Assembly (NCBI GenBank): GCA_024281995.1
Contig: JAMWZW010000001.1
Span: forward strand, 1 to 64,000
DNA: 64,000 nucleotides
DNA from: Nitrosomonas sp.
GTDB lineage: Bacteria; Pseudomonadota; Gammaproteobacteria; Burkholderiales; Nitrosomonadaceae
Reading direction: 5' to 3'
Positions 6,067-23,356 of the stretch are shown here, one piece after another. Made by a program: the position numbers and the translations under genes. The notes under the pieces are model-generated. The model worked only from the letters and a program-made list of their open reading frames with translations. It was not told the origin of the DNA and searched no databases. Within the stretch, counting starts at the first letter, position 1, and each line of letters opens with the position of its first letter.

Positions 6067-7551
6067 TCATCCTTGGGTTACTCGAATGGAATAGGATCCT
6101 GTCCCGATAGGTGAGTAATGCCTAACCCTGGCGTAATACTCACCCGGCGAAAGCTGGCGTTGGATACGCGCATTGAAGGAAACGCCGCCGTCGTCATTCC
6201 GGTCAATCTCCGGTATCTGACTATTCGGACCGTGCAATGTCATGAAAGTATCCGTGGTTCCGCTTGTCTCAACTGTGTAAATAGCTTCAGTTGTTACATT
6301 AAATCGGTACACATCGCTTTCATTCGCTGCGGAAATAGCGGCATCGATATTTGCACCATTAACAACAAGCTCAGGGATGGGATTGGCAGGTGCACCATCG
6401 GAACGTACCGCGACTGCATAATTTCCTGTTGCGTTCGGACTGAAAAGACGAATGCGTAAGTAATAGGTTCCTGCAGAGAGATTGCGGATGATTTGTGCGT
6501 TAAAATTCTCGCCTGCATCATCGTCTGATGTCACTTCGACATTCGCATCGTTCGGACCAAACAATGTCATGAATGTATCGGATGGTCCGGTGGTGAACAT
6601 CGTGTGCGGACCGAAGGTTGGAACTTCAAACCGAAAAACATCGGTTTCTCCCGCTGCCGCGATATCGGCTGGTGTAGGAGCAGCTCCGACAATAATGAGC
6701 GGTGGTGGTGGAGGCGGAGGCGGTGGAGCAGCGGCATCGTCATACTCAATACCCAAGGCCACACTGTTTAGAACGTCGATAGGACGTGAGCCCACTGGTC
6801 CTGAAGGCGTGTTATTCATAGGATCGGTCAAATTTTGCCCAAAAGGGCCCCCATTTGCAGGAAGATAACCTTGATTCGGGAATCGTATTTGCCACTCGTG
6901 CCAAATTTTATCGACCATGCAATGATTCATGAAGAACACTGGATCATTCGGCGAAGTCATCGGTAACATCGAACCGCCCACCCAGACATGTCCGCGGTTA
7001 TGCAGATTAGGGCCAATCCAGCCTTCCAGTTGATTGCGGAAACTTGGATTGCTGTTCATGCTCCAAGGTGGCGTGTCATAAGGCGTGACAGCCATAACTT
7101 GATTAATTTCAGCCTGAGTAGGTAAGGTTGGCAATCCATTTTGGCCAAATTCGCGCATCAATGGGCCCGCTGGCACTCCACTGGAATTGATAACGGTCCA
7201 CTGACCGGCACGGAATGGTCCGGTGCGGACAACACCACCGGCATCGCCATCTCCGCCGAGTAAATCGTCATCCCACATGGAAGCATTAGCACCACCTGAA
7301 GGCCAGTTCCAATATGGTATGCCAAGATTGGGATTGCCCGAGACGCGCTGCAATTCTAGTTCGAGATCATAAATAAAACGGCGGTGCCAGGGCAGGAAAG
7401 CAGGGCAGCGATGAATGGCGCTCATAATAGCGTTGGCATGTCGGAGAACAAATTGATCATAAACACCTTCCGCTTTCAAAGCTTGAATGGCGGCAACGAA
7501 TTCCGCGCGTTCCGTAGCAGTGAGGGTATTTGCATCTTTTCTGATAGCCAT
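6067..7551 (-). CDS. Tyrosinase (type-3 copper) with two C-terminal PPC-like domains
   Basis: Type-3 copper oxidase of the tyrosinase family, expected to hydroxylate monophenols and oxidise o-diphenols with O2. Start chosen at 7551 (MAIRKD) because a full AGGAGG lies just upstream; an open frame extends 59 codons further but overlaps the upstream gene. With this start the protein is 494 aa. CuA histidines: H38, H47 and H56 (HRCPAFLPWHRRF). CuB: H184 and H188 (HNRGH) and H210 in DPVFFMNH. A nine-proline linker follows, then two tandem repeats of about 100 aa (about 285-385 and 395-494), each with an SDTFMTL(F/H)GPN motif, like bacterial pre-peptidase C-terminal domains. No Sec or Tat signal is visible. 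It lies 31 nt after the 70-aa gene. Confidence 0.92.
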   Translation of the reverse strand: MAIRKDANTLTATERAEFVAAIQALKAEGVYDQFVLRHANAIMSAIHRCPAFLPWHRRFIYDLELELQRVSGNPNLGIPYWNWPSGGANASMWDDDLLGGDGDAGGVVRTGPFRAGQWTVINSSGVPAGPLMREFGQNGLPTLPTQAEINQVMAVTPYDTPPWSMNSNPSFRNQLEGWIGPNLHNRGHVWVGGSMLPMTSPNDPVFFMNHCMVDKIWHEWQIRFPNQGYLPANGGPFGQNLTDPMNNTPSGPVGSRPIDVLNSVALGIEYDDAAAPPPPPPPPPLIIVGAAPTPADIAAAGETDVFRFEVPTFGPHTMFTTGPSDTFMTLFGPNDANVEVTSDDDAGENFNAQIIRNLSAGTYYLRIRLFSPNATGNYAVAVRSDGAPANPIPELVVNGANIDAAISAANESDVYRFNVTTEAIYTVETSGTTDTFMTLHGPNSQIPEIDRNDDGGVSFNARIQRQLSPGEYYARVRHYSPIGTGSYSIRVTQG

Positions 7552-7582
7552 GAGAATTTCCTCCTCTTTTAATAGATGTGAA

Positions 7583-7795
7583 CTACTCTTGTACGTGAGA
7601 AAACTCGACAGAGTTTTTGGCGATTGCCCGAGCCAGTTCCAGTAATGAGCCATATAAAGTATAGGGCATGTATTTCGATGAAAATTTATCTTTTGCCGCA
7701 TCATACTGGTAGTCGATTTCTTTGCCATTGATTGTCAGGTTCGCACCGTCTATCACGATAGTGCAACCTTCAAAAATTTCTGTATGTTGTGCCAT
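7583..7795 (-). CDS. 70-aa protein upstream of tyrosinase
   Basis: Small unrecognised protein. An AAGGAG box precedes the ATG by a normal distance and the stop is 31 nt before the tyrosinase start, so the two are almost certainly co-transcribed. It is soluble-looking, with an N-terminal beta-rich part (GCTIVIDGANLTINGKEIDY) and a C-terminal helix (SLLELARAIAKNSVEF). It has one Cys and no signal peptide. Some tyrosinases need a small partner for copper loading or export (for example Streptomyces MelC1); this protein does not look like MelC1 in sequence, so a helper role is inferred from position only. Confidence 0.72.
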   Translation of the reverse strand: MAQHTEIFEGCTIVIDGANLTINGKEIDYQYDAAKDKFSSKYMPYTLYGSLLELARAIAKNSVEFSHVQE

Positions 7796-7925
7796 GTTAT
7801 CAACTCCTTATATGAATAGTGAAAATTAATTTTTCTTCTTTGTGGAGAAAAAATTTTTACGGTAACTTTTTCCACGTTAGCCTTTGCTTCATTGTGACAA
7901 ACTGGAATAGCATTTTCTTGCGGTG

Positions 7926-8402
7926 TTAATCATTTATCTCACACTGCAATTTAGAGGTGGTAATCATATTTATAGGGCGCCCGTGTCCGCGCAGCACAGC
8001 CGAGATATCCACCAAAAAACCGTCCAGCTTGTCGTAATTTATATTTGCAAATCCCAGCGTTCTTGGAAAATCCGCCTCCACGTCTTTGATTTTCGTTGCC
8101 TTGGTAGTCAGTAATTCAAGGCTCAGGGCTTCGGTAAACCGCGAGAACTGAAATCTACCTGATTTGGTTACTTGTTCGACCATGAAACAACCATGATATT
8201 GAGCTTGCAGTGTAAAAGTACCTGCTTTGGCAATAGCCAGTGTTCCGGAATGCAGCGTGGGTATTCCTGTGCATCCATCTGTTTCCGTTGAACTGATATG
8301 ACAAGTCATGTTTTTCATTTCAAAATACTCCTGTGACAAGACAGCAGAACTTTTTCCAGCTGCGATCAGAATACCTATAAAAATCACAGCAGATGGTTTC
8401 AT
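7926..8402 (-). CDS. Exported protein of unknown function
   Basis: 158 aa with a plausible short Sec signal (MKPSAVIFIGILIAAGKSSA, then a likely cleavage near SAVLSQ). The mature part contains four cysteines, in MTCHIS, DGCTG, YHGCFM and LQCEIN, that could form two disulfides in the periplasm. I do not recognise the family. It sits between the six-Cys protein and the 70-aa/tyrosinase pair in the same direction, so it is probably part of the same transcription unit. No catalytic motif is visible. Confidence 0.65.
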   Translation of the reverse strand: MKPSAVIFIGILIAAGKSSAVLSQEYFEMKNMTCHISSTETDGCTGIPTLHSGTLAIAKAGTFTLQAQYHGCFMVEQVTKSGRFQFSRFTEALSLELLTTKATKIKDVEADFPRTLGFANINYDKLDGFLVDISAVLRGHGRPINMITTSKLQCEIND

Positions 8403-8477
8403 GGCACTTTTTCTAACGCAGCAAACTAAGGAACAACCAGCCGCATCGTGCAGAATCCATTTTAGGCGTACTTACAA

Positions 8478-9314
8478 TTACTTCACGCATATGCCTGCAC
8501 AATCGGCGCCGCCTTTAGTCGGATCGCAATCATCTGTGGGGTCATCGACACACTTCATGCCTTCAGGGCATGGAAAAGCGGCAATTCCACCACACATTTG
8601 TCTGGGTTTATAGTCGTTGTAAGCAGCGCTTCCTTTGGGTGGATAATCGATGCGTTTGCCTTCTCCTGGTTTGGATGATTGTGTTGATCCCAATTTGACA
8701 GTATCGCGAATTTTGTGCGGTTGAACGGTTTCGACATCGATCGATTCAACGTCCCCGTCAGTATGCCGAGCGGTATATACGCTCACGACGTCCAAGGGAA
8801 CAGGGCTTTTTATCACCAGAAATCCTTCCAAAAATGCGAAATCCACACACACGCCATCAATCGGGCAAAAGTAGCCTGCAACATCAAAGCAATTTACCCC
8901 GACTGCGCCATCCGGTTGCAGAGTAATTCCCTTGAATGGTGTAACATCGAAAGGGCCCGGTTCGGACCCCATTTGTGTTGCAAGCGCAACTTTAGCTGCA
9001 ATAGTGATCTTTTTATCACCAGGATTGTGTATATTGACGATGGTACGGTAGGTACCTCTCGCTAAACTTCCATCCTGGTGCGGTAGCAGTAACGAACAGG
9101 CGACTTTTGCCGCATATTGATACTCTGTTTTGATTGTGTTTGAGTAGGTCACCGATTCCGCCCGCACAACCTGTTGCATAGCGATGAAACCGAAGCAGAA
9201 AGCTAAACCGAGTAGCATGGTGATGCGCCTGACAGATCGTTGAGAAACTATCTGCATTGCACCTGCAGTATTGAAATTTGATTTGTAGCGTGATTGATAT
9301 GCACTTTTTTTCAT
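8478..9314 (-). CDS. Exported protein with C-terminal six-Cys module
   Basis: Start set at 9314 (MKKSAYQ) because GAGGAGG lies a few nt upstream; a GTG 9 codons earlier is less likely. The protein is about 278 aa. A basic N-terminus, then the hydrophobic stretch MLLGLAFCFGFIAMQQVVRA (about residues 33-52), looks like a long signal peptide or anchor. The middle region (about 60-190) is beta-rich and unrecognised. The last 36 residues hold six cysteines spaced as in CGGIA, PCP, KCVDDP, DDCDP, GGADC, GIC, closely matching the C-terminus of the Kazal lipoprotein at 12596-13045. That shared module suggests a common binding or docking role. Co-directional with the copper-oxidase genes. Confidence 0.7.
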   Translation of the reverse strand: MKKSAYQSRYKSNFNTAGAMQIVSQRSVRRITMLLGLAFCFGFIAMQQVVRAESVTYSNTIKTEYQYAAKVACSLLLPHQDGSLARGTYRTIVNIHNPGDKKITIAAKVALATQMGSEPGPFDVTPFKGITLQPDGAVGVNCFDVAGYFCPIDGVCVDFAFLEGFLVIKSPVPLDVVSVYTARHTDGDVESIDVETVQPHKIRDTVKLGSTQSSKPGEGKRIDYPPKGSAAYNDYKPRQMCGGIAAFPCPEGMKCVDDPTDDCDPTKGGADCAGICVK

Positions 9315-9398
9315 GATAAACCTCCTCGCCCCACAGGGCATTATAGTTTACGTTTTATTGCTGTTATCTTGCTTCTTTGCGGTACCTCCCTTCTAAGA

Positions 9399-12300
9399 CT
9401 AAGAAATTAATACAAATCTCGCTTCCGATGGCACGTTCTGGTTATCGACTATGAACAGCATGTAGTATCCTGGCGGTGCGATATTGCCATGCGCTGGAGC
9501 AGTAGTTTCCAGGGTGGTAGCAGTGCGCGAATTGATTGGCAATTTGATATAACGCTGACCAGCATCGGTATGGTGTGTCACTGAAATGGGTGCGATCAAC
9601 ACCACCGCATTGATATCCGCCGCTTGTGTTGTTTCAATCACAAAAATACTCGCATACGTGACAGCGGGCGGCGCATTCGTTATAACCGGCCGTGTACCCA
9701 GGCTAAGATAACCCGGCGAATAAAGCTCAACCGAGTGTTGATCCGGATCCGCGGTACCCGGCGCAACCCCGCCGGCAGCAAGAACTTTTCCATCTGGCAG
9801 CAAGATGCACACTGAATGATACTGACGCGGGAAATTCAGTGGTGCGCCCACGGTCCATGTATTTATTGCCGGGTCATAGATTTCTGTTTCCAGTACGGGT
9901 GTCGGTGACCATTTTTGGCCATTGCTATGTCCGCCGATGATGAGTATCTTGCCGGTGGGTAATACCACGGCATTTACATTCGTGCGGCCAAAATTCATGT
10001 CTGCGGTACGCGTCCATGCCGCACCCGCAATGCCGCCATTGAATTCGATTACTTCAGCGGTCGCGTTATTGCGTGCAGTGGCAGGGCCGGATACGCCGCC
10101 GCCGAAGACATACAAGTGCGTACGCACTGGATTTACGGTCGTATCGAGCATGAGCAGGCTCATGCCTTCCTGGCGGTCATAAAATTGTTGCTGTCCGTAA
10201 TCAGTCCAGTTACCGCTATTTGGCCCGGTCATGGTCAAGTAAGCGGTCTGAGTTCCATTTGCACCAGCCCAACCGGCGCGGGTATAGAAAATTTCTCCGG
10301 AAGGAAGCAGGTGCATGCCGGGATACAATTCATCGAATGAACGGCTTGCCCCGGCGATCGGTGCCCAAGCTCCGCCGCCGAATATTTCAACTTGCGCCGC
10401 AACCGGGTGCCCTCCTGAGAAAGCGAGTATGCGCCCATCATTGAGACTCACCGCGGTTGGATACCACCGCGCATTGGTCATGTTGGTGGCTGGACTAAAC
10501 GTACCGCCATCGGGATTCGCTGCATTAGGCGTATAGATATAACAGCGATTGTTGCTATGTCCTTGACCAGTTGGTGTTGTGTCTCCGCCGATCACAAGCA
10601 AACGGCCATCACTTAAAAATGTATGTCCGCTACAGAATAGATCTTCCGGCAAAGTAATGATGCCTGGCATAATTTGCTTGGTAGCAGGATCCCATACGCG
10701 GGCTTCGAGCGGATACGCAACCCGATCAAGGCTTTCTGTTGCGCCTGAGAAAAGCAATACATGGCCTGTGTTTAATAGCGCGCCGTGAACAACGAAAATC
10801 GGTGATGGGTTCAGCAGTTCCCAGCTATCCTGGCCGTCTCCGCCGCAAGGGTGATGATCGACTTCTGGGCATTGATGCGCATGCACGGTCGGCAATTGGT
10901 AACAAATTCGCTTCAGTTCCTCATCGCTTAGTTCGACTTCCTGTGTGGCGCGGAGCACCGCCACCATGCCTTCCATCATGTGCATCTCGACATGGCAGTG
11001 AATCAGGAAATCACCTTGTAAGCAATATTTCTTGCGTTTTTTTCCATATTGATCGGAACAAGCGCCGTTCGATGGGTATTCCTGTTTATGATCGGATGTT
11101 GACGAGGAGGAATGGGGAGATTGCTTAGATTCAGTTTCCGACACAGAGCGATAATTTCCCTCGGATCCGTGATGGGAAGGGCCATGTCCACCTCCTTCCT
11201 CAGTCGGGGATGAATGAGAGTGCGTGTCCCCCTCATGCGGTTTACACGCACAGTCAAGCGGCAAAGGCATAAGAATGACCGGTGGTACGATGGTATCGGC
11301 GACAAAAGACTCGGCAGGTCCGAATGAACGGGTATCGATCCATTCATTGCCCCATCGCCAGCGTTGTCCATGTAAATGGAAATTGTGCCATAACATGCCC
11401 AAATCCAGATTGAAGACATACCAGCGCACGCGCGTTCCGCATTTAGCCACGATGGTAGGCGTATTTCCCGAGAATGTGCGCCCGTTGATGGCATATGATT
11501 CCAGCCCGGCGCCACTGCGCTCGGTTACAGTATGGGGTTGATTGCCTGCATGATTCCAAGTGACTACAGCACCTGCGCCAACGGTTATATCATCAAGTTC
11601 GAAGCGTGCCGGCGTATCCAGAATATTAATCGTGGCGGTTAGAGGGCCGGCCGCGGTGACACGTACGCGCCCTTGCATAGGATGGAAACGGCAATAGTAC
11701 TCGAACGTGCCTTCCTGATTGAAAGTAAATGTGAATAAATCGCCTGCATCAAGCGAACCACTATCGAAAAGCGCATTGCCGACTTTTGCGGTTAGGCGGT
11801 GAAAAAAAATGGGTACTTCAAGGTCTGCCTTATCGCAATGAGGATCGCGAACCACGATGCCGCCGAACAGTCCACGCTTTACGGCCTCTTCGATATGCAT
11901 GTGATGATCGTGGAAAGGCCATGCGCCAATGGTATCTTCTTTCACATCAAAAATATAACACCACTGATCGCCCGGACAAATCGCATCGCTGCGATTGGGG
12001 CCATCCTGTTCTTGCACGCCAAAAGGCCAAGCGCCATCCGAGTCGATGCCATAATGCAGACCGTGCACATGAAGGCTGCGAGGCTTGCTGTCACCATTGA
12101 GTACATGGATATAAAGCCTCTCCCCAGGTTGTGTATAGATGACTGTGCCGGGAATTCTCCGTTCGACACGGGGCTCATTGATGTCTGCCGCAATGAGCGG
12201 CGTGTTTTTTATGACAGTGTAGGCGGCATCAAGGTATTCGTGGTAAACCAGGGCATCCAATGAACGGCGATCCACTTCCGTTTGGGGAATGGTCGTGTCG

Positions 12301-12419
12301 CTATGCTCCATGTTTCTCATGCAATCAAGACGGTGCTTGTGATGTTCCGCATCATCAGGCGCAACGGGACTGTAGTTTGGTATTGCTTCGATTTTGAGGT
12401 ATATATGCCTTACATTCAT
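9399..12419 (-). CDS. Multicopper oxidase fused to galactose-oxidase-like copper-radical oxidase
   Basis: 1006 aa, ATG preceded by AAGGAG. The N-terminal half is a multicopper oxidase with all four ligand clusters: H117-V-H119-G, H170-D-H172-H, H345-N-F-H348-L-H350 and H474-C475-H476 with H480 and M485. Between clusters 2 and 3 is an extra cupredoxin-like region: C243-x2-H246-P-M248 comes first and a TWNHAGNQPHTV segment (H290, H296) second. A His/Ser-rich linker lies at about 390-450. The C-terminal half (about 530-1006) is a Kelch propeller plus DUF1929-like domain with galactose-oxidase-type residues: C596 (FCSGH), Y653 (ARWYP), Y867-H868 (RQYHS) and H949/H950. The expected chemistry is O2-dependent oxidation of alcohols or aldehydes, with H2O2 formed by the radical domain. 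No signal peptide is seen. Confidence 0.9.
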   Translation of the reverse strand: MNVRHIYLKIEAIPNYSPVAPDDAEHHKHRLDCMRNMEHSDTTIPQTEVDRRSLDALVYHEYLDAAYTVIKNTPLIAADINEPRVERRIPGTVIYTQPGERLYIHVLNGDSKPRSLHVHGLHYGIDSDGAWPFGVQEQDGPNRSDAICPGDQWCYIFDVKEDTIGAWPFHDHHMHIEEAVKRGLFGGIVVRDPHCDKADLEVPIFFHRLTAKVGNALFDSGSLDAGDLFTFTFNQEGTFEYYCRFHPMQGRVRVTAAGPLTATINILDTPARFELDDITVGAGAVVTWNHAGNQPHTVTERSGAGLESYAINGRTFSGNTPTIVAKCGTRVRWYVFNLDLGMLWHNFHLHGQRWRWGNEWIDTRSFGPAESFVADTIVPPVILMPLPLDCACKPHEGDTHSHSSPTEEGGGHGPSHHGSEGNYRSVSETESKQSPHSSSSTSDHKQEYPSNGACSDQYGKKRKKYCLQGDFLIHCHVEMHMMEGMVAVLRATQEVELSDEELKRICYQLPTVHAHQCPEVDHHPCGGDGQDSWELLNPSPIFVVHGALLNTGHVLLFSGATESLDRVAYPLEARVWDPATKQIMPGIITLPEDLFCSGHTFLSDGRLLVIGGDTTPTGQGHSNNRCYIYTPNAANPDGGTFSPATNMTNARWYPTAVSLNDGRILAFSGGHPVAAQVEIFGGGAWAPIAGASRSFDELYPGMHLLPSGEIFYTRAGWAGANGTQTAYLTMTGPNSGNWTDYGQQQFYDRQEGMSLLMLDTTVNPVRTHLYVFGGGVSGPATARNNATAEVIEFNGGIAGAAWTRTADMNFGRTNVNAVVLPTGKILIIGGHSNGQKWSPTPVLETEIYDPAINTWTVGAPLNFPRQYHSVCILLPDGKVLAAGGVAPGTADPDQHSVELYSPGYLSLGTRPVITNAPPAVTYASIFVIETTQAADINAVVLIAPISVTHHTDAGQRYIKLPINSRTATTLETTAPAHGNIAPPGYYMLFIVDNQNVPSEARFVLIS

Positions 12420-12595
12420 GATCTACATCTCCTTTTCAGGAAGGTACTCATAAACATAAAAAGTATGCTTAGTTAGCCGCAATAACCACGTCAACCTTGC
12501 TTCATCCTGGTCTATTGCGGCTCATTTCTGATGATGTCAGATAAAATTCAACCGCTTATTTCCTAGCGTACTTTTTCCTTACGTGCCACGACAAT

Positions 12596-13045
12596 CTATT
12601 CGACTTTACATATTCCTGGACAATCCGCTCCCCCTTGTGCAGGATCGCAGTCGTCAGCAGGATCATCGATACAAGTCTGTCCATCCGGGCATTGAATGCC
12701 TGCGATTCCACCACACGCTTGAGGCGTAGCTTTACATTCCCCAGGGTGATCAATGGACATACCCGCTGCTGCTGCTTCACAGGCATTGCCATAAGTTTTT
12801 CCATCGCAACCGCAAACCGGCTTGTACTCTTTTGTGCATATTTCGGGTTTGGTTTTACAAATGCCTTGCGCATCGGCAACCTTGCATTGACCCACCCCGA
12901 AGTCGCAATACTGTTTATCTGGGCACGCTAATCCCTGGATCGTGCCGCAAATCGTTTCTTGCGGCGGTGCCGGCTGATTATCTTTACAGCCAGCCACTAC
13001 TAAAGAGATAAAAAAAACAACGAATAGAGTGAAAAGTGTATGCAT
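12596..13045 (-). CDS. Kazal-type, cysteine-rich lipoprotein
   Basis: Start at the ATG at 13045 (MHTLFTLF), preceded by GGGAG; a TTG seven codons earlier is less likely. 149 aa. The signal ends in a lipobox (VVAGC), giving a predicted outer- or inner-membrane lipoprotein. The mature part has an N-terminal Cys cluster beginning CGTIQGLACP, a Kazal-like serine-protease-inhibitor domain (PVCGCDGKTYGNACEA at about 77-92), and the C-terminal six-Cys module also found in the 8478-9314 protein. Kazal-like domains in bacteria are not always inhibitors. It is first in the minus-strand copper-oxidase run, 176 nt before the oxidase fusion, and may protect or scaffold exported partners. Confidence 0.85.
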   Translation of the reverse strand: MHTLFTLFVVFFISLVVAGCKDNQPAPPQETICGTIQGLACPDKQYCDFGVGQCKVADAQGICKTKPEICTKEYKPVCGCDGKTYGNACEAAAAGMSIDHPGECKATPQACGGIAGIQCPDGQTCIDDPADDCDPAQGGADCPGICKVE

Positions 13046-13409
13046 GATGTTTAACTCCCTTTTCAACAGATAGCTGGCGAATCGCCAGGTTTTCTTGATT
13101 AGTGATTAAACTGCTTGAGCTACAGGATTAGTTAGCTAATCCTTTTTTCATCATGCTCTTTGTTTCTTTACTTTGCAATAGTGAACTTAAAAATGGCATA
13201 GTAGCTTGAAATATTATTAATTTTGTGCGGCAGTGGCTTCAGTTCTTATGAGTTACTTGATCTGCCGGCTAATCTAATCATAATGGAAGGCGACAACCTA
13301 TCTTCTTGCTATTGCACAAGCCGGAAAGTAACATTGAAATTTGTTAAAGATTGGCTTATTCATTATCAACGATAAGAATCTCGCAATAATTCTGCTTATT
13401 TGTGATGAA
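13046..13409. promoter_or_regulatory. Divergent promoter region of the copper-oxidase locus
   Basis: About 300-360 bp between the divergent Kazal and oleate-hydratase genes. It must contain promoters for both arms. I see AT-rich stretches around 13190-13220 but no operator palindrome I would name. Confidence 0.4.
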
Positions 13410-15005
13410 GTGAAACGGAAACTATCAAAAGACACCACGGTTTACTTGGTTGGCAGCGGTATCGCAACATTGGCCAGCGCATACTATCTCATAAACGATG
13501 CGGGTGTGAGCGGTAAAAATATTCACATTCTGGAGCAGGACTCAGTCATAGGTGGCGCTTGCGATGGCTCTGGCAATGCGGAGCAGGGCTATGTGATTCG
13601 TGGCGGCAGAATGCACGAAGCGCATTATGTGTGTTATTGGGATATGCTATCGCATATCCCTTCTTACGATGATCTCAATGTTTCCGTCAAGGATGAGTCC
13701 TTTGCTTTTAATCAGCGTTATGTATCCAATGCCAAAGCACGATTACTCAAGAACGGTGAGAAAATTGACACTACCCGCTTAGAATTGTCGCTACGGGATA
13801 AAATAGATTTGCTGCAATTGATTCTGACAACGGAACACGGTTTAGCTAATATGAAAATTGAGGATTGGTTTTCTGCAGCATTTTTTTCTACCGTTTTCTG
13901 GTATCTGTGGACATCCATGTTTGCTTTCCAACGTTGGAGTTCGCTCGCGGAAATGCGCCGTTATCTGCGGCGCTTCATACATCTGGTAGAAGGCTTGGGG
14001 CATTTAGGCGGCATAATGCGCACTCGCTATAACCAATATCATTCGGTAATTGTTCCACTGCAGCGATACCTCCAAAAAAACGGCGTGCAATTTCAAATGC
14101 AAACTCAAGTTGTCGATATCGATTTTGAATTTCACGCAGACAAAAAAACTGCAACGGCTCTGCACTTGCTCCATTTCAATGGCTTGTCAAGCAAGGTGGT
14201 TTTGGGTGTTAACGATGTAGTATTCATTACCAATGGCTCAATTACCGATAGCACCAGTCAGGGCACCTGGACAACCGCGCCGGTATTGAAAGAGAAATCA
14301 TCTTCCGCAAGCTGGATGTTGTGGCAGTGCATTGCCAGCAAAAACAAGGCGTTTGGTAATCCCGGCGTGTTCAGTGATCATATCGAATTGCAAAAATGGT
14401 ATTCATTTACGGTCACATTGAAAGACACTACTTTTCATGATCATATGCATGCGTTCAGCGGGAATATCGACGGTACAGGTGGTCTGGTGACGATGATTGA
14501 TTCGAACTGGTTGCTGTCAATTGTCATTGCTCGCCAGCCTCATTTTCCTGATCAGCCGGAGTCTGTAAAGATTTTTTGGGGGTACGGATTATATCCGGAG
14601 CGCAAAGGTAATTACGTGCAAAAAACGATGTCGGCATGCAGCGGCGCAGAAATTTTGCAAGAATTGTGGCATCACCTGAAAGTACTGGAAATCATGCAAC
14701 CGATAACTGATTCTGGAAAGATTAGGTGTATCCCGACAGCCATGCCATTTATTGATAGCGCATTCATGCCTCGATCAGCCGGGGATCGTCCTGACGTCGT
14801 ACCTGCGGGAGCCAGCAATTTCGCTTTTATCGGGCAGTTTGCCGAATTGCCTGAGGAATGCGCATTTACCGTCGAATATTCGGTACGCAGTGCTCAAACA
14901 GCCGTCTATGGACTTTTTGCAACCAATAAAACAGTACTGCCAATTTACGATTCAATTCATCGTCCCAGTGTTCTAATAAAAGCCATGCAAGTCATTAACC
15001 GTTAA
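13410..15005 (+). CDS. ohyA: Oleate hydratase-like FAD protein (MCRA family)
   Basis: Family that adds water to the cis-9 double bond of unsaturated fatty acids, giving 10-hydroxy acids. FAD-binding motif VGSGIATLASAYYL followed by IHILEQDSVIGGACDG matches the family, as do GGRMHEAHYVCYWDML and the closing YSVRSAQTAVYGL segment. The start is uncertain: the open frame begins with TTG at 13341, whose first 23 codons look unlike a protein start; the GTG at 13410 (VKRKLSKDTT) gives 531 aa. Neither has a clear ribosome site. No signal peptide. It is divergent from the copper-oxidase arm and may supply or detoxify lipid substrates; that link is inferred. The family normally has GGREMENHFEC where this has GGRMHEAHYVC. 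Confidence 0.85.
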   Translation: MKRKLSKDTTVYLVGSGIATLASAYYLINDAGVSGKNIHILEQDSVIGGACDGSGNAEQGYVIRGGRMHEAHYVCYWDMLSHIPSYDDLNVSVKDESFAFNQRYVSNAKARLLKNGEKIDTTRLELSLRDKIDLLQLILTTEHGLANMKIEDWFSAAFFSTVFWYLWTSMFAFQRWSSLAEMRRYLRRFIHLVEGLGHLGGIMRTRYNQYHSVIVPLQRYLQKNGVQFQMQTQVVDIDFEFHADKKTATALHLLHFNGLSSKVVLGVNDVVFITNGSITDSTSQGTWTTAPVLKEKSSSASWMLWQCIASKNKAFGNPGVFSDHIELQKWYSFTVTLKDTTFHDHMHAFSGNIDGTGGLVTMIDSNWLLSIVIARQPHFPDQPESVKIFWGYGLYPERKGNYVQKTMSACSGAEILQELWHHLKVLEIMQPITDSGKIRCIPTAMPFIDSAFMPRSAGDRPDVVPAGASNFAFIGQFAELPEECAFTVEYSVRSAQTAVYGLFATNKTVLPIYDSIHRPSVLIKAMQVINR

Positions 15006-15206
15006 AGAATCATCAAGAGACTGCGCTGCAGTGCAGCAACAAAGTTAATAACGGCGCACGATGCACAACAAATATGCATCAGCTATTTTTTCCTTTTTCT
15101 TTTTTCGATTTCATGCTTGATCAAAGCGAGCAATACATTATAGAGTAAGGTTTTTTAGGCTGCTACTCGACTATAAAAGAGTGAATGATGATTTTGTCCC
15201 AACATA

Positions 15207-16688
15207 ATGGTGGAAAATAAGCCCTTGACAGAGCAATCGGAGGTCAGTAGCCCACCTGCAGTAACCATGCAGGCATCTGATCATCTTTATCAATGGTTGG
15301 ATAGCGAACAGATCAGCTTTGCTTTTACAACCTATCAGGCCAATCGATTGTTTTTGGTGGGGCGGAAAGAAAATGGCCGTTTGGCCGTCAATGAGCGTTT
15401 GTTCGATAAGCCGATGGGGTTGTATACCTGTCACGAGCAACTTTTCATGGCGACACGCTATCAGATTTGGCAACTTGAAAATCGCTTGGCCACGGGCGAG
15501 TGGTATCAAGATTGTGATCGCTTGTATGTGCCTACTCAGTCGCACACCACGGGTGATTTGAGTGTGCACGATCTTGCTGTGACGGATAAGCAAGAAATTT
15601 TGTTTATTAATACTAATTTTAGTTGTATTGGCAGATTGCAAGCCGGTTACAGTTTTGCGCCTATTTGGAAACCGCCTTTTATCACTAAACTTGTTGCGGA
15701 AGATCGTTGTCATTTGAATGGATTGGCACTGCAGGATGGTGAGCCTGCATATGTGACGGCATGCAGTGTTACCGACGTTGCCGCTGGCTGGCGTGATCGC
15801 CGCTTGGATGGCGGTGTGGTGGTGCATATTCCTTCGAATGAAATTATTGCTTCCGGTTTATCCATGCCGCATTCGCCGCGCTGGTATCAAGGCAGATTGT
15901 GGCTGCTCAATTCCGGTACAGGAGAATTTGGTTATCTCGACAGCGGTCGGTTTATGCCGGTTATTTTTTGTCCAGGTTTTGTGCGTGGTTTGGCATTCTG
16001 GAAAAATTTTGCTTTAGTAGGTTTATCCAAGCTGCGCTCGAAAGTGTTTACAGGGTTGGCTTTGGAACAGCGGCTCGCACATGGCCATATGACATCGCAG
16101 TGTGGACTGATGATCATTGATCTCAACAGGGGTAATTTACTTCATACGCTACGGATTGATGGCGTGGTTGAAGAACTATTTGATGTGGTGGTGTTACCTG
16201 GCGTATCCCGGCCTAAAGCTCTAGGTTTTCAGAATGACGACATTGATCGGCTGATCTCTTTTCCCGGTTCGGGAGGTATCATCACGACTAAGCCAGTGGT
16301 GCAACGTCCTGGTTTGAGTCAACTCGTGCAGAAGCCTGGAGTGCCGCGTGCCTCGCAGTTGGATTATGGTGAGAAACCCGAAATTAAATATCAAAAGGTG
16401 CTTAATTTAACGCCAGAGAACCTTCTGGCTTATGAGTCGATGACCCAACCCAGTTTGCGTAATCGTTGGCTTACGCAGCCGCAACGCGGAGAACTGCTGG
16501 GTGTATCTGCTTCCATTAACGGCGAGATGGTTGGCTTCGCGGTAGCGGAATCGTGGCAAGAAGCAGGCGACTCACATATTGAGTTACTTTCATCGTATGT
16601 GTTGCCCGAGTACTGCCATCATCCGATTGAACAGAAGTTGCATGTGTTCTTACAACAAGCACTGAGTAATACCGGGAAGTTAGTTTAA
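15207..16688 (+). CDS. TIGR03032-like beta-propeller protein with C-terminal extension
   Basis: 493 aa. Residues about 25-350 match what I recall of the TIGR03032 family (function unknown): WLDSEQISFAFTTYQANRLFLVG, SVHDLAV, CHLNGLAL, GLSMPHSPRWY and GLSKLR motifs in a propeller-like series. The last about 100 residues (from LNLTPENLLAYESM) form a separate segment with LLGVSASINGEMVGFAVAE and IELLSSYVLPEY, which looks like part of a GNAT-type acyltransferase fold; this is tentative. The ATG lies about 200 nt after the oleate hydratase stop, with no strong ribosome site. No signal peptide. Its place between the hydratase and the giant oxidase makes it part of the locus by position. Confidence 0.78.
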   Translation: MVENKPLTEQSEVSSPPAVTMQASDHLYQWLDSEQISFAFTTYQANRLFLVGRKENGRLAVNERLFDKPMGLYTCHEQLFMATRYQIWQLENRLATGEWYQDCDRLYVPTQSHTTGDLSVHDLAVTDKQEILFINTNFSCIGRLQAGYSFAPIWKPPFITKLVAEDRCHLNGLALQDGEPAYVTACSVTDVAAGWRDRRLDGGVVVHIPSNEIIASGLSMPHSPRWYQGRLWLLNSGTGEFGYLDSGRFMPVIFCPGFVRGLAFWKNFALVGLSKLRSKVFTGLALEQRLAHGHMTSQCGLMIIDLNRGNLLHTLRIDGVVEELFDVVVLPGVSRPKALGFQNDDIDRLISFPGSGGIITTKPVVQRPGLSQLVQKPGVPRASQLDYGEKPEIKYQKVLNLTPENLLAYESMTQPSLRNRWLTQPQRGELLGVSASINGEMVGFAVAESWQEAGDSHIELLSSYVLPEYCHHPIEQKLHVFLQQALSNTGKLV

Positions 16689-17087
16689 CTTGCAGTAACT
16701 TAAAAGAGTCAAAGTGTAAGACTCGGCTATTATTCTTGCTACCACCTATCCATTGGCTTTGAGGATTTTTAGGGGTTTTTCAGAGTTGGTCAGTATGAGT
16801 GGCGATAGGTATTGGATGCCTATACCACATTTCTTTTTAGTGCCCACATACTGCGACGGCCAACTGGACAGCACGCGATACGTAAGCTAACGTCCATGCT
16901 TTATAGCGCGCGTGATATTTACGTCAGTAGTTAATAAAGTGGCACACTTACTGACAAGAAGATCCACCAACAATTTTGTGACATTTATCACAAAATATTC
17001 TACGGATTTCTGATATAAATAAAAATACAGAAGCTTGCTGTTAAAAAGAGAGTGGCTAGAGATTTAACGCATGTCAAGGTGAGAAAA
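16689..17087. promoter_or_regulatory. Intergenic regulatory region upstream of giant oxidase genes
   Basis: About 400 bp without a gene. It holds the CRP-type palindrome at 16973-16996 and a good -10-like TATAAA at 17014-17019. The rest (16700-16960) shows no gene or repeat that I can name. Confidence 0.5.
16973..16996. promoter_or_regulatory. CRP-family operator (perfect palindrome)
   Basis: Two perfect 9-bp arms, ATTTTGTGA and TCACAAAAT, separated by 6 nt, giving TGTGA-N6-TCACA, the exact CRP/Vfr half-site spacing. A -10-like TATAAA sits at 17014-17019, which would put the centre of the palindrome near -41, the class II activator position. It precedes the genes at 17088 and 17759. Confidence 0.68.
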
Positions 17088-17741
17088 ATGGGAATTCCAT
17101 CAAATTTTAGTGATGAAGGTCTGACTGGATTTCATGTCTCTTCATCCACACTTGTAAAGATTGAACAGCACTATGAAAGTGCAACAGGCGAGTCCCTTGT
17201 GTCTAGTGAAGGTTGTTTTGTTCGAATTGACGATCCTCGCGCTATTGACTCGGATGGCTTAAGACTACCTGAAGCCAAAAATGCAGCGATAAGCTTAGTA
17301 GGCGAAAAAAACTGGCTGCCGCGTACTCACGCCGACGGTACATTGACACATGGTGGCAGGGGTGCATGGCTGGAATGCAGGAATATACGGATACCAAAAA
17401 ACAAGCGATTGTGGTTTCGATACACTTTTTTACGGTTTGCTTCGCTACCTACTAATGCGTTTGCCGCACTTTTGTTTTTTCCCAACGACAACACCAACGA
17501 TGCTCCCCTGGCACCTCACTGGATTTGCTGTGTTAAGGATCTGCAGCAAGATAAAGGTGGCATTTACCAAACCGGCTGGAACGAAGATTGGGTAACAGTC
17601 GATTGCAGCGGTGATTTTCAAGGAACTGCCAGATGGGTTGTTTCGACGGGTCATTCTGTAAGCGATCAAGGAGCAATACCAGATAACACCCGTTTTGCCT
17701 GGCCAGGCTGTTTGCTTATAGATGCTATCGACATTCGCTAG
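17088..17741 (+). CDS. Unrecognised protein co-transcribed with giant oxidase
   Basis: 217 aa from the ATG at 17088, preceded by AAGGTGAG; the frame is also open from a GTG at 17052. I do not recognise the family. The protein is acidic-to-neutral, lacks a signal peptide, and has a central segment GRGAWLECRNIRIPKNKRLWFRY split by basic residues, followed by LPTNAFAALLFFPND and HWICCVKDL with adjacent cysteines. It could be a beta-sandwich binding domain. Its stop lies 17 nt before the start of the 1865-aa oxidase, so the two are almost certainly one transcript under the CRP-type site. Confidence 0.65.
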   Translation: MGIPSNFSDEGLTGFHVSSSTLVKIEQHYESATGESLVSSEGCFVRIDDPRAIDSDGLRLPEAKNAAISLVGEKNWLPRTHADGTLTHGGRGAWLECRNIRIPKNKRLWFRYTFLRFASLPTNAFAALLFFPNDNTNDAPLAPHWICCVKDLQQDKGGIYQTGWNEDWVTVDCSGDFQGTARWVVSTGHSVSDQGAIPDNTRFAWPGCLLIDAIDIR

Positions 17742-17758
17742 TCAACAGGAGGAATACA

Positions 17759-20700
17759 ATGTCTTACTTAAATCGTTTATTCCTGAGCTGTATACTGATT
17801 TTTCTCACAGCCGCCTGCAAGATAATCGATGATAGTGGTGATAATGGCCGCCTTGTGCAACGCATCGTACATGTCGATGTCGTAGCGCTCGAGCAGCCGC
17901 TTTATTACAACCGATTTGGATCGGTGAATCCTTATGGAATGATTTATGCATTGAAGCGAGATGTCACTGAAGTTATGGAAGGCGAGGAATGGCTGCCTGG
18001 ATTATCCTGCCCGTCAAAAGTACGCCTGCAAACAGGAAAACGGCCCCGGCCACTTACATTGCGTGGCAATGTCGGGGATATTTTGGAAATCACCTTTACC
18101 AATCAATTATTGGCGCAGCAGCCGGATATCAGTCAATGCAAACTACTCGACAAACAATCACCTTACGCACATTTAGTTAATGTAGGCGACCCAATCGAAG
18201 CTATTGATCCCGATGAACATGAACTGCGTCCGGATAAAGGAGGGGCCGAAAATGTGGCACCGGCTGATTGGCCGAAAACACGGTCGGCAAATATCGCTAT
18301 TCCCGGTTTGACTAGTTTGTTGGGCTCCGAGCCGAAATGCAATGGATTGCAATCTATCGATCCCGGAGAATCAATCACTTGTCAGTGGAAGCTTGAGCGG
18401 GAAGGTACGCATTTATTTTCCAGCCTTGGTGCGCCTGCGGGTGGTGAAGGTGATGGTGGCAGTCTGACGCATGGATTATTCGGTGTAGTCATTGTCGAAC
18501 CTAGAAACAGCAAATGGTACCGCAGCCAGGTGACCGCGTCTGTTTTCGATAAAGTTTGGCTGCGCCAGCAGGAAAATGACAGTGCGCGCAAGGGTAAATT
18601 GCAATATGACGCGGTCGACGCGAATGGTATTCCCTATCTGAACATGCTTAAGGCAGCCGGAAAAGGCGATTCAAAAAATACCATGCGTTATGAACTTATT
18701 TATGGCGACCTAAATGCTGTGATTTTGGAAGAAACCCCTAAAAATCCTAATACACCGGCATTTCGTGAGTTTACGGTTGTTTTTCATGACGAGCTAAAAA
18801 CTTTTTATGCCAAAAACTTCCAGGAATTGGCAACTAGCCGGCAATTGAGTGGTGTTGGTGATGGATTCGCCATTAATTATGGCGCCAGCGGAATGGGTTC
18901 TATATTACTGGCGAACCGTAAGGAAATAGGACCTGCCGCTGAATGCGCAGAATGTTTCTATGAAGAATTTTTCCTGCAATCATGGGCGAATGGCGATCCC
19001 GCACTGCTAGAGCATTTTGACGATGATCCCTCCAATGTCACGCACTCTTATTTAAATGACCGCATTAAGTTCCGGAACTTGCATGCAGGTCCGAAAGAAA
19101 CGCATGTTTTTCACTTGCATGCCCACCAATGGCTGTCAACCGCAGATACTAATACCGGCACATATCTTGATTCACAAACTATTGCGCCACAGCAGGGATT
19201 TGACTATTCCATCTACGATGGCGGTCTATCTAATTGGGGAAGTGAAGGTAATTTTCACACAAACGGTAGCGGTAATCGCAATCGTACTACTGGAGATTCT
19301 ATTTTTCACTGCCATCTTTATCCCCACTTCGCCCAAGGTATGTGGGCGCTCTGGCGTGTACATGATGTGATCGAGGATGGTACTCGTAGATTGCCGGATG
19401 GACAGCCTGAAGTACGTTATTACGGCCAGCCAAGCGTGGCATTGTCTATAGAGAGATTGGAGGTGAATGGAAAACGGCCTGGAACTGACCCAGTTACTGG
19501 TGTCAGTGGTGCCGGTACTCCCATTCCTGCAGTACTTCCACTTCCCGGCCAAAGCCTGCCCCCACTTCCCACATATGCACAGGTTCAGAATACCGAAAGA
19601 CCTGAGTCATATGCTATGCCGGGGTACCCATTTTATATTCCTGGCGAGCCAGGCCGAAGAGCGCCGCAACCTCCACTGGATTTTGCTAAAAATGAGAATG
19701 GATCGCTGATGCACGGCGGCCTTCCAAGACATGTAGTTAAAAGTGGCGAGCGTAAACCCGTTTTTCTACCTGACGACTCGGTAAATCAGTTACCTGATGA
19801 TCCGGATACGCGCATGGCAAAACTCTTGCGAAAATCCCTTGCGTTAGGAGATTTTCGTCTGGAATTAACTCAGGCCGACATCACTTTGCTAAATCACGAA
19901 GGCGAGCCTATAGAACGGCAAGCAATGGATTTTCATGCTGGAAAAGCCATTAGAATCCGGCTTGCTGATGGATCCTATGTTTCATATGATTCGACCGGAT
20001 CCGGCTATCCGTCTTTGACACCAGAAGGTAAAGCCGCACATTTTTATGTGAATGGCGCCTTACCTGCACCCGGTGCACCTTTCGCGGATCCTTGTCACGA
20101 TCCCGCAAAAACGGGGAATCGGCAATATGAGGTGTCGGCGGTCGGACTCAATCTGGTGGTAAATCGTGCCGGCTGGCATGATCCACAGGCGCGCATCAAT
20201 GTTCTGACCAAAGATGCTGAAAGCATCGAAGGACATCGACGGCACGACATGGAACCATTCTTTTTCCGAGCTGCTTCCGGTGAATGTATAGAATTCAAGC
20301 ATCAGAATAGAACGCATAAGGAGCTTGAACTGGACGATTTTCAGGTTGCTACACCTACCGATATCATCGGTCAACATATCCATCTGGTTAAATTTGACGT
20401 GACATCCTCTGATGGTTCGGGGAATGGATTTAATTACGAAGATGGCACGTTCTCGCGTGGCGCCGTTGCAGAACGCATTGCCGCTGCCCAAGGCATTGCC
20501 ATGACATCCAAGGGCGAACAGAAACAACTCACCGTAGGTAGAGATTTTGATGGCCAACCGGTTGGCGATTATCAAACAACCGTACAACGCTGGTTTGCTG
20601 ATCCATTGCTGACGGTGCGAGATAAAGATACGACAGATACCATGCATACCATGCATGGCAAAGCATCACCGGACAGACCGTGTCGGATACAAACCGATAA

Positions 20701-23356
20701 GGAATGTATCGACCGTACGTTGCGTACAGTTTTTACGCATGATCATTTTGCGCCTTCTTCCATACAACAGCATGGCTTTTATTCTGCTCTGCTCGTTGAA
20801 CCAGCTGGTTCAAAATGGTTGCAGCCCAATGGGAGTGTGCTTGTAGATGGTGTGGGTTCAAAAGCCATCATTGTCGATGCCGATGATTGGTTAATCCATG
20901 AAAATCACCGTGAATATGCACTTGCAGTGGCTGATTTTGCTTTACTTTATGAACCAACGTTATATCAGCCGTGGCTGGATCAAACAGTCAACAATGGTAT
21001 GGCAAGATTGCTTCATGAATCCGGTAAAGAAACAAGCAATCCGATCATGGCGGTATTGTCCGCTAATCTCGAACAACATGCCAAGCAGTGGTGGAAACAA
21101 TACGGTAAACCTGTTGATCCGCCGTTCAAGCCTGAAGCTATTTCCAAGGATCACCACAATCCGTACTTAGTAAACTATCGTCATGAGCCGATTCCACTGC
21201 GTATTGGAAAGATGGAAGAAAAACTGCAAGCCCCTGAAGAAACAAATTGTGGCCAATATGCACAAACTCGCGATGCCAATGGCTATTTAACTAAAAGGGA
21301 AAGTATTGTCAGTCAGAGGACGGACAACGATGGTGATATGGCATTTGTTTTTGCCACTCGTGAGCACGGAGACCCATGTACTCCAATATTGGAAGCATAT
21401 GAGGGTGAAAAAATCCAAGTCCGTATGATTCAGGGTGCACAAGAAGTGCAGCATACCTTTGCGATTGAAGGTTTATACTGGCCGCGCGTAATCGATTATT
21501 CCGCAAGTAATCATTTTTCGGAACAAGCACAGGTGAAGCGCGATAATCCGTTGGCATTGGTTGCTGCGCAGGAGATAGGAATATCCGAGCATTTTGAAAT
21601 GCGTCTGCCACCCATTGGAAATGTAACCAGTGGTGCAACTGTAAATGACTATCTCTATCATTTTGGAACTGTCGATGCATTATGGAATGGTGCCTGGGGG
21701 ATATTGAGAGTGCACAATGGCATTACATCTCCGGATTCGCAAGCTTGCGGCCCCAATCAAAACCCATTGAGTAGCAAAGCATCTGACAAATGGTTTGCGC
21801 GCAGAAATTTATTCGCGCGTGATGGTGAGGGCATTCCACCTTCATGCCAACAAGCAATTGGAGAGCGGTTGAAGCCATTGCCAGGGCATGGGGTAGGAAA
21901 AATAAAGCTGAAAAACCCATCAGATCTTTGCCCCAGTGAATCAAGACCGGTCAATTATACAGTTGTAGCAATCCGGACTGATTTACTGATTTCTTCAGAA
22001 AAGAATCGCTTATTTTACGATCGTGATAATCAAATTTTCGATCCCGACGCGTTAATACTGCTGGCTATGCCATCCGGCAATTCCGCACCTACGCTTGAAG
22101 ATGTCCGCGGTATATATCAGGAAAAGGCCGATGCAGGCAACCTGGAACCGTTAGTTCTGCGCGCCAATGCCAACGACTGCATCGAGCTTAATGTTCACAA
22201 TCTGCTGACCAAGAATGAAAAAGAAACATCGTTACCAGATTCCAGCGGAGATGCATTAATGCCCAAAATCGTTCCGCTGAATGTCGACAAGTCTGCTGAT
22301 CCGAACGCAGACGATATTAAACCATCAGCGCGTTTGTCGATCTCGATACCAATGCTGCCTAGCGTTGGATTCACCAATTACCATAATATCGGTATCGGTA
22401 TGAATCGCAGTATGGAACCAGTACCGAGTGGACGGCAGATTAATTTGCGTCTTTATGCAGGCAAACTGGAGCTGGAGCCAGGAGAAAAAGTTAAAGGTGT
22501 ACCTGTTTGCGACGACCAAGAGGAATGTTCTTATACTTTAAACGGAATTCCTTATGCTTTTGGAACGATACCGATCAAGGCATTTGGCGACGTTATCGGT
22601 CATGGCACGCATGGTTTGTTTGGTACGCTCATCATCGAACCGGAAGGTGCGACCTATCATGACCCTAAGACTGGAGCATTGGTTTCGGATAATGATCGCT
22701 GGCACCTCGGATCGGAAGCTTTAATCAAATACACCGATGAAAAAGGCGATATGCGAACATTCCGTGAATTCGTAATCGCTTATCAAGACGGATTGAATCT
22801 GCATTGGAATCCGCCATTGAAGTCCACCAATGTATCCGAACCGATTGGCGATTGTCCAATCTGCGATGATTCATATGATCATGGAGAAAAAGGGCTTAAT
22901 TATCGCACTACACCTTTCTGGTCAAGACTGCGGCATGGCGTTGATATTAATGGAAATATCGTTAAGAATAATATCAATGTCGACACGGATTTGAATCAAA
23001 TAAAATTTCCAAATAATTTTCTGTTGGAGTCATGGGCCAAGATACCGACACCCATTTTTCAAGCTAAAGTTGGTGAAGAAGTACGCTTTCGTATTTCGCA
23101 ACCTCATGGTCGAGCTCGCCAGCGCGCGTTTTTAAGCTTTGGACATGATTATCGGGATGTAATACCTCAATTCGGCTCAGCACATGCTGCGCTATTATCT
23201 CCAGGCAAGTCTATCACGGCTGCTTTATCGGGTACGGCTAAAGAGGGCTGCTATCTCTATCGTGACGGTCCGATGCATATTTTTGCAGGAGGTGTATGGG
23301 GGCATTTCAGAGTTAACCCGGCGGATGGCACTACCTTGAAATGTGTAGAATCATAA
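17759..23356 (+). CDS. Giant multicopper oxidase lipoprotein (MofA/MnxG-like)
   Basis: 1865 aa, start preceded by GGAGG. The N-terminus ends in a lipobox (LTAAC, Cys at 20), so it is exported and lipid-anchored. Copper ligands are in an unusual order: HLHAHQW (about 449-457) and HCHLYPHFAQGMW (about 517-529) come first; QHIHLVKFD (about 873) and THDHFAPSSIQQHG (about 992) come later. Three tandem cupredoxin-pair modules can be seen from repeated THGLFG(V/T)(V/L)I(V/I)EP-type and FxxxGxWGxxRV-type ends (about 238, 1000 and 1615; 530, 1310 and 1845). The third module has lost its ligands. Size and permuted order recall the MofA/MnxG manganese oxidases, but function here is unproven. Last gene of the plus arm. 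Confidence 0.87.
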   Translation: MSYLNRLFLSCILIFLTAACKIIDDSGDNGRLVQRIVHVDVVALEQPLYYNRFGSVNPYGMIYALKRDVTEVMEGEEWLPGLSCPSKVRLQTGKRPRPLTLRGNVGDILEITFTNQLLAQQPDISQCKLLDKQSPYAHLVNVGDPIEAIDPDEHELRPDKGGAENVAPADWPKTRSANIAIPGLTSLLGSEPKCNGLQSIDPGESITCQWKLEREGTHLFSSLGAPAGGEGDGGSLTHGLFGVVIVEPRNSKWYRSQVTASVFDKVWLRQQENDSARKGKLQYDAVDANGIPYLNMLKAAGKGDSKNTMRYELIYGDLNAVILEETPKNPNTPAFREFTVVFHDELKTFYAKNFQELATSRQLSGVGDGFAINYGASGMGSILLANRKEIGPAAECAECFYEEFFLQSWANGDPALLEHFDDDPSNVTHSYLNDRIKFRNLHAGPKETHVFHLHAHQWLSTADTNTGTYLDSQTIAPQQGFDYSIYDGGLSNWGSEGNFHTNGSGNRNRTTGDSIFHCHLYPHFAQGMWALWRVHDVIEDGTRRLPDGQPEVRYYGQPSVALSIERLEVNGKRPGTDPVTGVSGAGTPIPAVLPLPGQSLPPLPTYAQVQNTERPESYAMPGYPFYIPGEPGRRAPQPPLDFAKNENGSLMHGGLPRHVVKSGERKPVFLPDDSVNQLPDDPDTRMAKLLRKSLALGDFRLELTQADITLLNHEGEPIERQAMDFHAGKAIRIRLADGSYVSYDSTGSGYPSLTPEGKAAHFYVNGALPAPGAPFADPCHDPAKTGNRQYEVSAVGLNLVVNRAGWHDPQARINVLTKDAESIEGHRRHDMEPFFFRAASGECIEFKHQNRTHKELELDDFQVATPTDIIGQHIHLVKFDVTSSDGSGNGFNYEDGTFSRGAVAERIAAAQGIAMTSKGEQKQLTVGRDFDGQPVGDYQTTVQRWFADPLLTVRDKDTTDTMHTMHGKASPDRPCRIQTDKECIDRTLRTVFTHDHFAPSSIQQHGFYSALLVEPAGSKWLQPNGSVLVDGVGSKAIIVDADDWLIHENHREYALAVADFALLYEPTLYQPWLDQTVNNGMARLLHESGKETSNPIMAVLSANLEQHAKQWWKQYGKPVDPPFKPEAISKDHHNPYLVNYRHEPIPLRIGKMEEKLQAPEETNCGQYAQTRDANGYLTKRESIVSQRTDNDGDMAFVFATREHGDPCTPILEAYEGEKIQVRMIQGAQEVQHTFAIEGLYWPRVIDYSASNHFSEQAQVKRDNPLALVAAQEIGISEHFEMRLPPIGNVTSGATVNDYLYHFGTVDALWNGAWGILRVHNGITSPDSQACGPNQNPLSSKASDKWFARRNLFARDGEGIPPSCQQAIGERLKPLPGHGVGKIKLKNPSDLCPSESRPVNYTVVAIRTDLLISSEKNRLFYDRDNQIFDPDALILLAMPSGNSAPTLEDVRGIYQEKADAGNLEPLVLRANANDCIELNVHNLLTKNEKETSLPDSSGDALMPKIVPLNVDKSADPNADDIKPSARLSISIPMLPSVGFTNYHNIGIGMNRSMEPVPSGRQINLRLYAGKLELEPGEKVKGVPVCDDQEECSYTLNGIPYAFGTIPIKAFGDVIGHGTHGLFGTLIIEPEGATYHDPKTGALVSDNDRWHLGSEALIKYTDEKGDMRTFREFVIAYQDGLNLHWNPPLKSTNVSEPIGDCPICDDSYDHGEKGLNYRTTPFWSRLRHGVDINGNIVKNNINVDTDLNQIKFPNNFLLESWAKIPTPIFQAKVGEEVRFRISQPHGRARQRAFLSFGHDYRDVIPQFGSAHAALLSPGKSITAALSGTAKEGCYLYRDGPMHIFAGGVWGHFRVNPADGTTLKCVES

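Follow-up and report, generated by a model that had tools for sequence, protein, structure and literature searches.

A minimal caddie-like protein as the likely partner of a nitrifier tyrosinase in a mosaic Nitrosomonas locus

Introduction

In Streptomyces, the caddie protein MelC1 aids copper loading of the tyrosinase MelC2, plugs the active site with its Tyr98 and leaves after this residue has been converted to a quinone (available text of PMC6312201). A second Streptomyces pair, MelD1–MelD2, consists of an intracellular enzyme and, in S. coelicolor, a helper without a Tat motif, and melD reportedly protects against phenolics (available text of PMC2758597). Here, we describe a small gene, c2, that lies directly upstream of a MelC2-like tyrosinase gene in a 64,000-nucleotide stretch of Nitrosomonas sp. 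DNA (assembly GCA_024281995.1, contig JAMWZW010000001.1, positions 1 to 64,000; hereafter the window), within a cluster of copper-oxidase genes.

An orthologue of c2 with a solved structure is NE1242 of Nitrosomonas europaea (PDB 2jv8), deposited as an uncharacterized protein and released in 2007. The copy in genome G038 is identical to NE1242 over 71 aligned residues, and we therefore took G038 to be N. europaea. A literature search outside which most subscription papers fall gave neither a paper containing the words NE1242 or 2JV8 nor an account of the locus or of any caddie in nitrifiers. Our strongest result is a likely role for 2jv8, predicted from structure modelling and gene position, as the minimal, caddie-like partner of a tyrosinase in nitrifiers. 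This offers a concrete function for a structure deposited without one and, if true, would extend caddie-dependent tyrosinases beyond the Streptomyces cases compared here and separate the plug from the copper relay; N. europaea being a culturable model nitrifier, the idea is directly testable.

The tyrosinase start and the gene that it concealed

The window genome (G000) belongs to Nitrosomonas, and the relatives with which it was compared include N. communis, N. mobilis, N. aestuarii and Nitrosomonas sp. JL21. Its tyrosinase, the sole PF00264 match in the genome, matches the solved enzyme 1wx2_A (1.2e-64), with which its six copper-binding histidines align. The NCBIfam model for MelC2-type tyrosinases (NF047834) gives 256.5 bits, below its equivalog cut-off of 450. 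A reading of the gene as 553 codons from position 7728 was rejected, because its extra 59 codons are an out-of-frame reading of c2 that runs into stops in relatives, and the start was moved accordingly to 7551. In those relatives, the long reading breaks near residue 50, and the conserved small protein c2 fills that place. The most likely start, judged from the sequence, is thus Met 7551, with AGAGGAGG upstream, and the corrected start uncovers a small gene that the old start hid.

Using a c2 profile built from 20 sequences, we found the protein in 24 relatives out of 149. This set coincides with the genomes that carry a tyrosinase of at least 60% identity, and in all 24 loci c2 adjoins the tyrosinase gene directly upstream; among the genus members searched, c2 and this tyrosinase always occur as a pair. 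A search of 369 class-level genomes gave seven matches, namely G000, G006 and five others. Of these five, four are placed immediately upstream of a gene for a tyrosinase; the fifth (G195, E 3e-4) has no adjoining tyrosinase and is probably a chance match. Since only G000 and G006 were matched among 299 phylum-level genomes, c2 is rare. The gene is under purifying selection, with a median dN/dS of 0.15 (70 usable of 120 pairs, 16 sequences), and in N. europaea as in the window it stands side by side with the tyrosinase gene and a further small gene, sm158, which precedes c2 in all 24 tyrosinase loci of the genus.

A proposed caddie role for c2

The protein encoded by c2 is predicted to share the fold of MelC1, and its Tyr45, invariant in 20 of 20 sequences, aligns with the active-site Tyr98 of MelC1; this correspondence is one of alignment, with MelC1 numbering transferred, on the basis of residue spacing, from H92, M94, H107 and Y108, which are invariant in the MelC1 alignment, and from the titles of PDB mutant entries. 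The arrangement resembles MelC1–MelC2 in that a small protein of predicted caddie fold lies directly upstream of a MelC2-like tyrosinase, in that the plugging tyrosine is conserved, and in that the tyrosinase has no signal peptide (for Streptomyces, available text of PMC2758597; in the window and its relatives, as read by eye at the N-terminus). It differs in the small size of c2, which has neither a Tat signal nor the His82/Met84/His97 relay, in the two PPC domains of the tyrosinase, and in the signal-peptide-bearing sm158 gene that precedes the pair. The absence of a Tat motif is shared with the MelD1–MelD2 helper, from which c2 differs in coming from another phylum and in consisting of a bare domain.

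We consider it probable that the locus is a mosaic in which one module is a tyrosinase operon with c2 as a caddie-like copper-loading partner and the neighbouring oxidases are optional. According to this model, c2 would bind newly made apo-tyrosinase in the cytoplasm and place Tyr45 in the active-site pocket, keeping the pocket open but silent during copper loading, and would be released once Tyr45 had been oxidised, leaving an active enzyme able to oxidise phenols to quinones. Copper would come from a donor other than c2, because c2 has different residues at the positions of His82, Met84 and His97; c2 may thus have kept the plug and lost the relay and export parts. The multicopper and radical oxidases would be optional partners that might oxidise phenols, alcohols or aldehydes, or Mn(II).

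Several observations weigh against this proposal. The relay residues align with Asp28, Gln30 and Pro44 in the window protein, and neither a Tat nor any other signal peptide could be seen by eye in c2, which begins at its domain. Pfam gave no MelC1 match for c2, and the NCBIfam MelC1 model (NF047833) matched 2 of the 20 members weakly (E 0.025). The structure model is moderate (pTM 0.57) and was built on a shallow alignment of 20 rows; in a Foldseek search with it no match reached E 0.001, and 2jv8 was not among the best 50 rows. Distant tyrosinases of the genus (G077, G024) have no c2 alongside, the Tyr98 position reads Phe in a c2-like Nitrosospira protein, and outside the loci of the genus sm158 was seen by BLAST beside only one of four class-level tyrosinases. 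Exported proteins commonly carry PPC domains, which sit oddly with a cytosolic enzyme. Finally, with both the His/Met relay and the signal peptide missing from c2, chaperone action is a proposal drawn from fold and gene position.

The invariant plugging tyrosine, together with the other residues that occupy the relay positions, would suit a caddie-fold inhibitor or lid that silences the tyrosinase and has no part in copper loading. We regard this as rather doubtful, given that the Streptomyces caddie does both jobs in one protein (available text of PMC2758597 and PMC6312201) and that, extrapolating from the latter, the relay may be dispensable if copper arrives as Cu(I).

A more speculative extension of the copper-loading model, and one that we think improbable, is drawn by analogy. 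Hydroxylamine is the product of ammonia monooxygenase, the genes for which are present in the window genome (genome search). In Streptomyces, NH2OH speeds copper incorporation, brings about oxidation of the tyrosine of the caddie and speeds the release of active enzyme (available text of PMC6312201). Because ammonia oxidisers make the compound that speeds caddie release in Streptomyces, hydroxylamine might switch on the tyrosinase in these bacteria, with the c2 plug as a sensor: NH2OH would reduce the copper, the caddie tyrosine would be oxidised and the caddie would leave, such that phenol oxidation would start only during ammonia oxidation. A second amoA-like match in the window genome (G000:C21:56648-57357) appears to fall into two parts, of which one contains an internal TGA.

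Other small proteins near tyrosinases were also considered. As an alternative caddie, sm158 was set aside, since no profile similarity to MelC1 was detected. Three Nitrosospira loci (L101, L103 and L114, about 7400-9700, minus strand) encode, besides a tyrosinase of a different kind, a 161-aa protein similar to c2 (cad161) and a conserved unknown of 269 aa, in an arrangement divergent from an MCO-GO gene (a fusion of multicopper oxidase, MCO, and galactose oxidase, GO). Lying between that tyrosinase and the MCO-GO gene, cad161 resembles c2 (hhalign 85%) without clear resemblance to MelC1 (hhalign 8%), and we therefore treat it as a lead.

Modules of the locus

The features of the locus are collected in Table 1. 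Rather than a single pathway, the stretch would be a mosaic that occupies a variable site, bounded by mutS-slyD and rnhB, and is made up of a minus-strand tyrosinase operon (cys156, the optional MCO-GO fusion, cys287, sm158, c2 and tyrosinase), an oleate hydratase–TIGR03032 module and an orf229–giant MCO module. Of these separable pieces, the tyrosinase is the most constant.

Table 1. Genes of the mosaic locus and its borders in the window
Feature	Coordinates	Strand	Remarks
mutS	2640..5231	+	Pfam MutS domains; left border of the mosaic locus, also in G063, G075, G013
SlyD-like FKBP-type isomerase	5267..5746	-	Named from sequence; syntenic with mutS in G063, G075, G013
Tyrosinase	6067..7551	-	494 aa; MelC2-like catalytic domain and two PPC domains; PF00264 4.9e-40
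c2	7583..7795	-	70 aa; NE1242/2jv8 orthologue, minimal caddie-like; own Shine-Dalgarno AAGGAG; frame differs from tyrosinase
sm158	7926..8402	-	158 aa; N-terminus resembling a signal peptide; four Cys invariant; no family match
cys287	8478..9341	-	Exported-looking; C-terminal six-Cys module; exact start uncertain
MCO-GO fusion	9399..12419	-	1006 aa; MCO fused to GlxA/galactose-oxidase-like radical copper oxidase; Cu-oxidase_3, Cu-oxidase_2, Kelch, GO-like_E_set
cys156	12596..13066	-	156 aa; Kazal-type, lipoprotein-like; six-Cys module as in cys287; start probably at Met 13045
Oleate hydratase (MCRA family)	13341..15005	+	PF06100 3.1e-201; NCBIfam NF010584 687.6 bits, above cut-off 567
TIGR03032/DUF4915 protein	15207..16688	+	Extra C-terminal part; 470 bits, cut-off 251.5
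orf229	17052..17741	+	Without known family; directly upstream of giant MCO in relatives
Giant MnxG/McoA-like MCO	17759..23356	+	1865 aa; lipobox-like N-terminus (by eye)
rnhB	23421..23996	-	Named from sequence; right border of the mosaic locus

Searches of Pfam and NCBIfam returned nothing significant for sm158, cys287 or orf229. The cys156 protein has a Kazal_1 domain (2.1e-8) and a lipobox read by eye. Its C-terminal six-Cys module is shared with cys287, as a sequence-only reading of the window had noticed, and the sharing is visible in the DNA too, where the two modules form direct repeats (8478-8640 and 12596-12760) that flank the MCO-GO gene. In G032 (L161, 1701-2171) neither the fusion nor cys287 is present, and the tail of the remaining cys156 ends like cys287, with ICVK instead of ICKVE; this ending suggests that the genes were lost by recombination between the shared modules. 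The final 120-150 bases of the tail are still closer to cys156 than to cys287. In G072, the MCO-GO gene has collapsed at a repeated AADIN with its reading frame kept.

In addition to its domain matches, the fusion aligns with GlxA at the catalytic Cys, Tyr, Tyr-His and His positions, and differs from GlxA and galactose oxidase in being joined to a multicopper oxidase and in having no signal peptide (by eye, relatives alike). Its score against the NCBIfam GlxA equivalog is 225 bits, below the cut-off of 800. With signal peptides absent by eye from both tyrosinase and fusion, the label 'exported' is unsupported for these two proteins. Among the 24 tyrosinase loci, five (G000, G005, G011, G075, G013) have an intact fusion inside the operon, G063 and G072 have a collapsed one, and none was found beside the tyrosinase in the remaining loci. 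Close relatives of the fusion outside the family, at 57-70% identity and two of them partial, come from an Anaeromyxobacter, a Methylococcaceae bacterium and Crenothrix polyspora (L111, L112, L115).

The giant MCO barely registers in Pfam (0.039), but matches NCBIfam MnxG (5.8e-197, 657 bits, below the cut-off of 3100) and PDB MnxG 9bxa (6.3e-90), and it keeps the HxH and HCH copper motifs of MnxG over several aligned stretches. The window copy differs from MnxG/McoA systems in having no propeller-like, SCO1/SenC or cytochrome c-like neighbours. Such proteins, with weak matches for the propeller-like and cytochrome c-like ones, stand beside the giant MCOs of G072, G067, G075 and G058 (L088, L092, L096, L097). 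An N. europaea MCO of 1886 aa has already been grouped with MnxG proteins (available text of PMC3600357), and putative Mn oxidases in Nitrosomonadaceae have been published; according to the available text of that report, Mn(II) oxidation is so far undemonstrated for any member of these nitrifier families (PMC11995701).

Upstream of the giant MCO, orf229 is paired with it in G063, G064, G030, G038 and G010, and weakly in G072. The oleate hydratase and TIGR03032 genes are adjacent in G000, G005, G063 and G032, and neither protein shows an export signal by eye.

Four enzymes or separable units

The sequence-only reading had proposed that tyrosinase, MCO-GO fusion, giant MCO and oleate hydratase act together, in cross-linking a surface polymer or in oxidising lipids, phenols or Mn(II). 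The proteins that it named are present, as the matches above and the TIGR03032 score attest, and its statement that every enzyme class uses O2 is true of all the classes here except the hydratase. The single enzyme classes are already known, and no description of the four-class combination was found in the literature, most subscription papers lying outside the search.

Co-occurrence was counted in 85 genus members, many of them draft assemblies that may hide genes. Limits were chosen by us: at least 70% identity and near full length for MCO-GO, at least 60% for tyrosinase, and at least 45% over at least 400 residues for giant MCO. The weaker matches dropped were those of tyrosinase at about 28-50%, those of MCO-GO to one half or of a different subtype, a third giant-MCO type, and another giant MCO of 2400 aa, which is present in eight genomes and was counted separately. 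Under these limits, tyrosinase accompanies the hydratase in all seven hydratase genomes (p 7e-5), giant MCO in 8 of 12 (p 0.0033) and MCO-GO in 6 of 10 (p 0.027), values from 15 comparisons that are corrected neither for their number nor for ancestry.

The first two of these associations, together with the neighbourhood in the window and the use of O2 by all the classes but the hydratase, speak for a single pathway. The full set, however, was found in G000 only, MCO-GO and giant MCO occur together in one genome against 1.4 expected, and four of the seven hydratase genomes have one common locus. Moreover, operons that keep the tyrosinase either lack the fusion or hold it in collapsed form in G059, G050, G073, G038, G032, G063 and G072, and neither the hydratase nor the TIGR03032 protein appears to be exported. 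With all four enzymes in one of 85 genomes and a locus that is modular in relatives, a four-enzyme pathway is unsupported, and we hold it to be very improbable. Tested against the refuting condition named in the sequence-only reading, the four-enzyme set is scattered in relatives and the pairwise links persist; the pathway idea is replaced by smaller, recurring linked units.

A variable site between mutS and rnhB

Giant MnxG-like MCOs occur near tyrosinase in four contexts (G000/G063, G006, G004 and G064). The two genes are 10 kb apart in the window, with the G063 linkage deduced across two contigs, about 5 kb apart in G006 and about 600 bp apart in G004, where the MCO is of a third type. In G064, an orf229–giant MCO pair is placed, across two contig ends, in a gap between two genes next to the tyrosinase; this gap, of about 93 bp, is empty in G033. 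The giant MCO lies outside the tyrosinase stretches read in G038 and G072, and the G010 and G081 contigs do not extend far enough to show the arrangement. Near the G010 tyrosinase, a protein of 1568 aa resembles the giant MCO in length and was rejected, having no match to the giant-MCO profile.

MCO-GO genes likewise stand near tyrosinases in three contexts: in five Nitrosomonas, in three of six named Nitrosospira/Nitrosovibrio loci (the three Nitrosospira loci above, with their different tyrosinase), and in G073, where an MCO-GO-like gene of another subtype is near a third kind of tyrosinase, a tyrosinase-VWA protein. The recurrence of these neighbourhoods supports a loose partnership between tyrosinases and multicopper oxidases, and no fixed pathway.

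The site itself is variable. The rnhB gene adjoins the locus in G063, G075, G013, G005 and G032. In the stretches read of G064, G030 and G038, orf229 and giant MCO lie apart from rnhB; in G000 and G063 they stand next to it. An RTX-like 962-aa gene occupies the corresponding place beside rnhB in G005 and G032. Such differing contents between mutS and rnhB, the replacement of orf229 and giant MCO by the RTX-like gene, and a tyrosine recombinase/integrase at 1120-2406 would be expected of a pure hot spot, at which mobile DNA lands and the modules are functionally unlinked. We consider this somewhat unlikely, as tyrosinase and giant MCO are neighbours at other chromosomal sites too (G006, G004 and, across contig ends, G064) and MCO-GO is found near non-orthologous tyrosinases in the three Nitrosospira and in G073.

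Other features of the window

The left end of the variable region, next to mutS, carries the integrase (PF00589 with an arm-binding domain, minus strand). Beyond the right border, an RTX-repeat protein is encoded at 24396-25310 (plus strand), between rnhB and fabZ. Further along, at 44086-46483 (minus strand), we observed a DRT type 8-like anti-phage pair, consisting of a reverse transcriptase (PADLOC Drt8, 483 bits) and a PD-(D/E)XK partner (RTasPDDEXK, 216 bits), adjoined by a SoFic-like Fic protein at 46643-47749.
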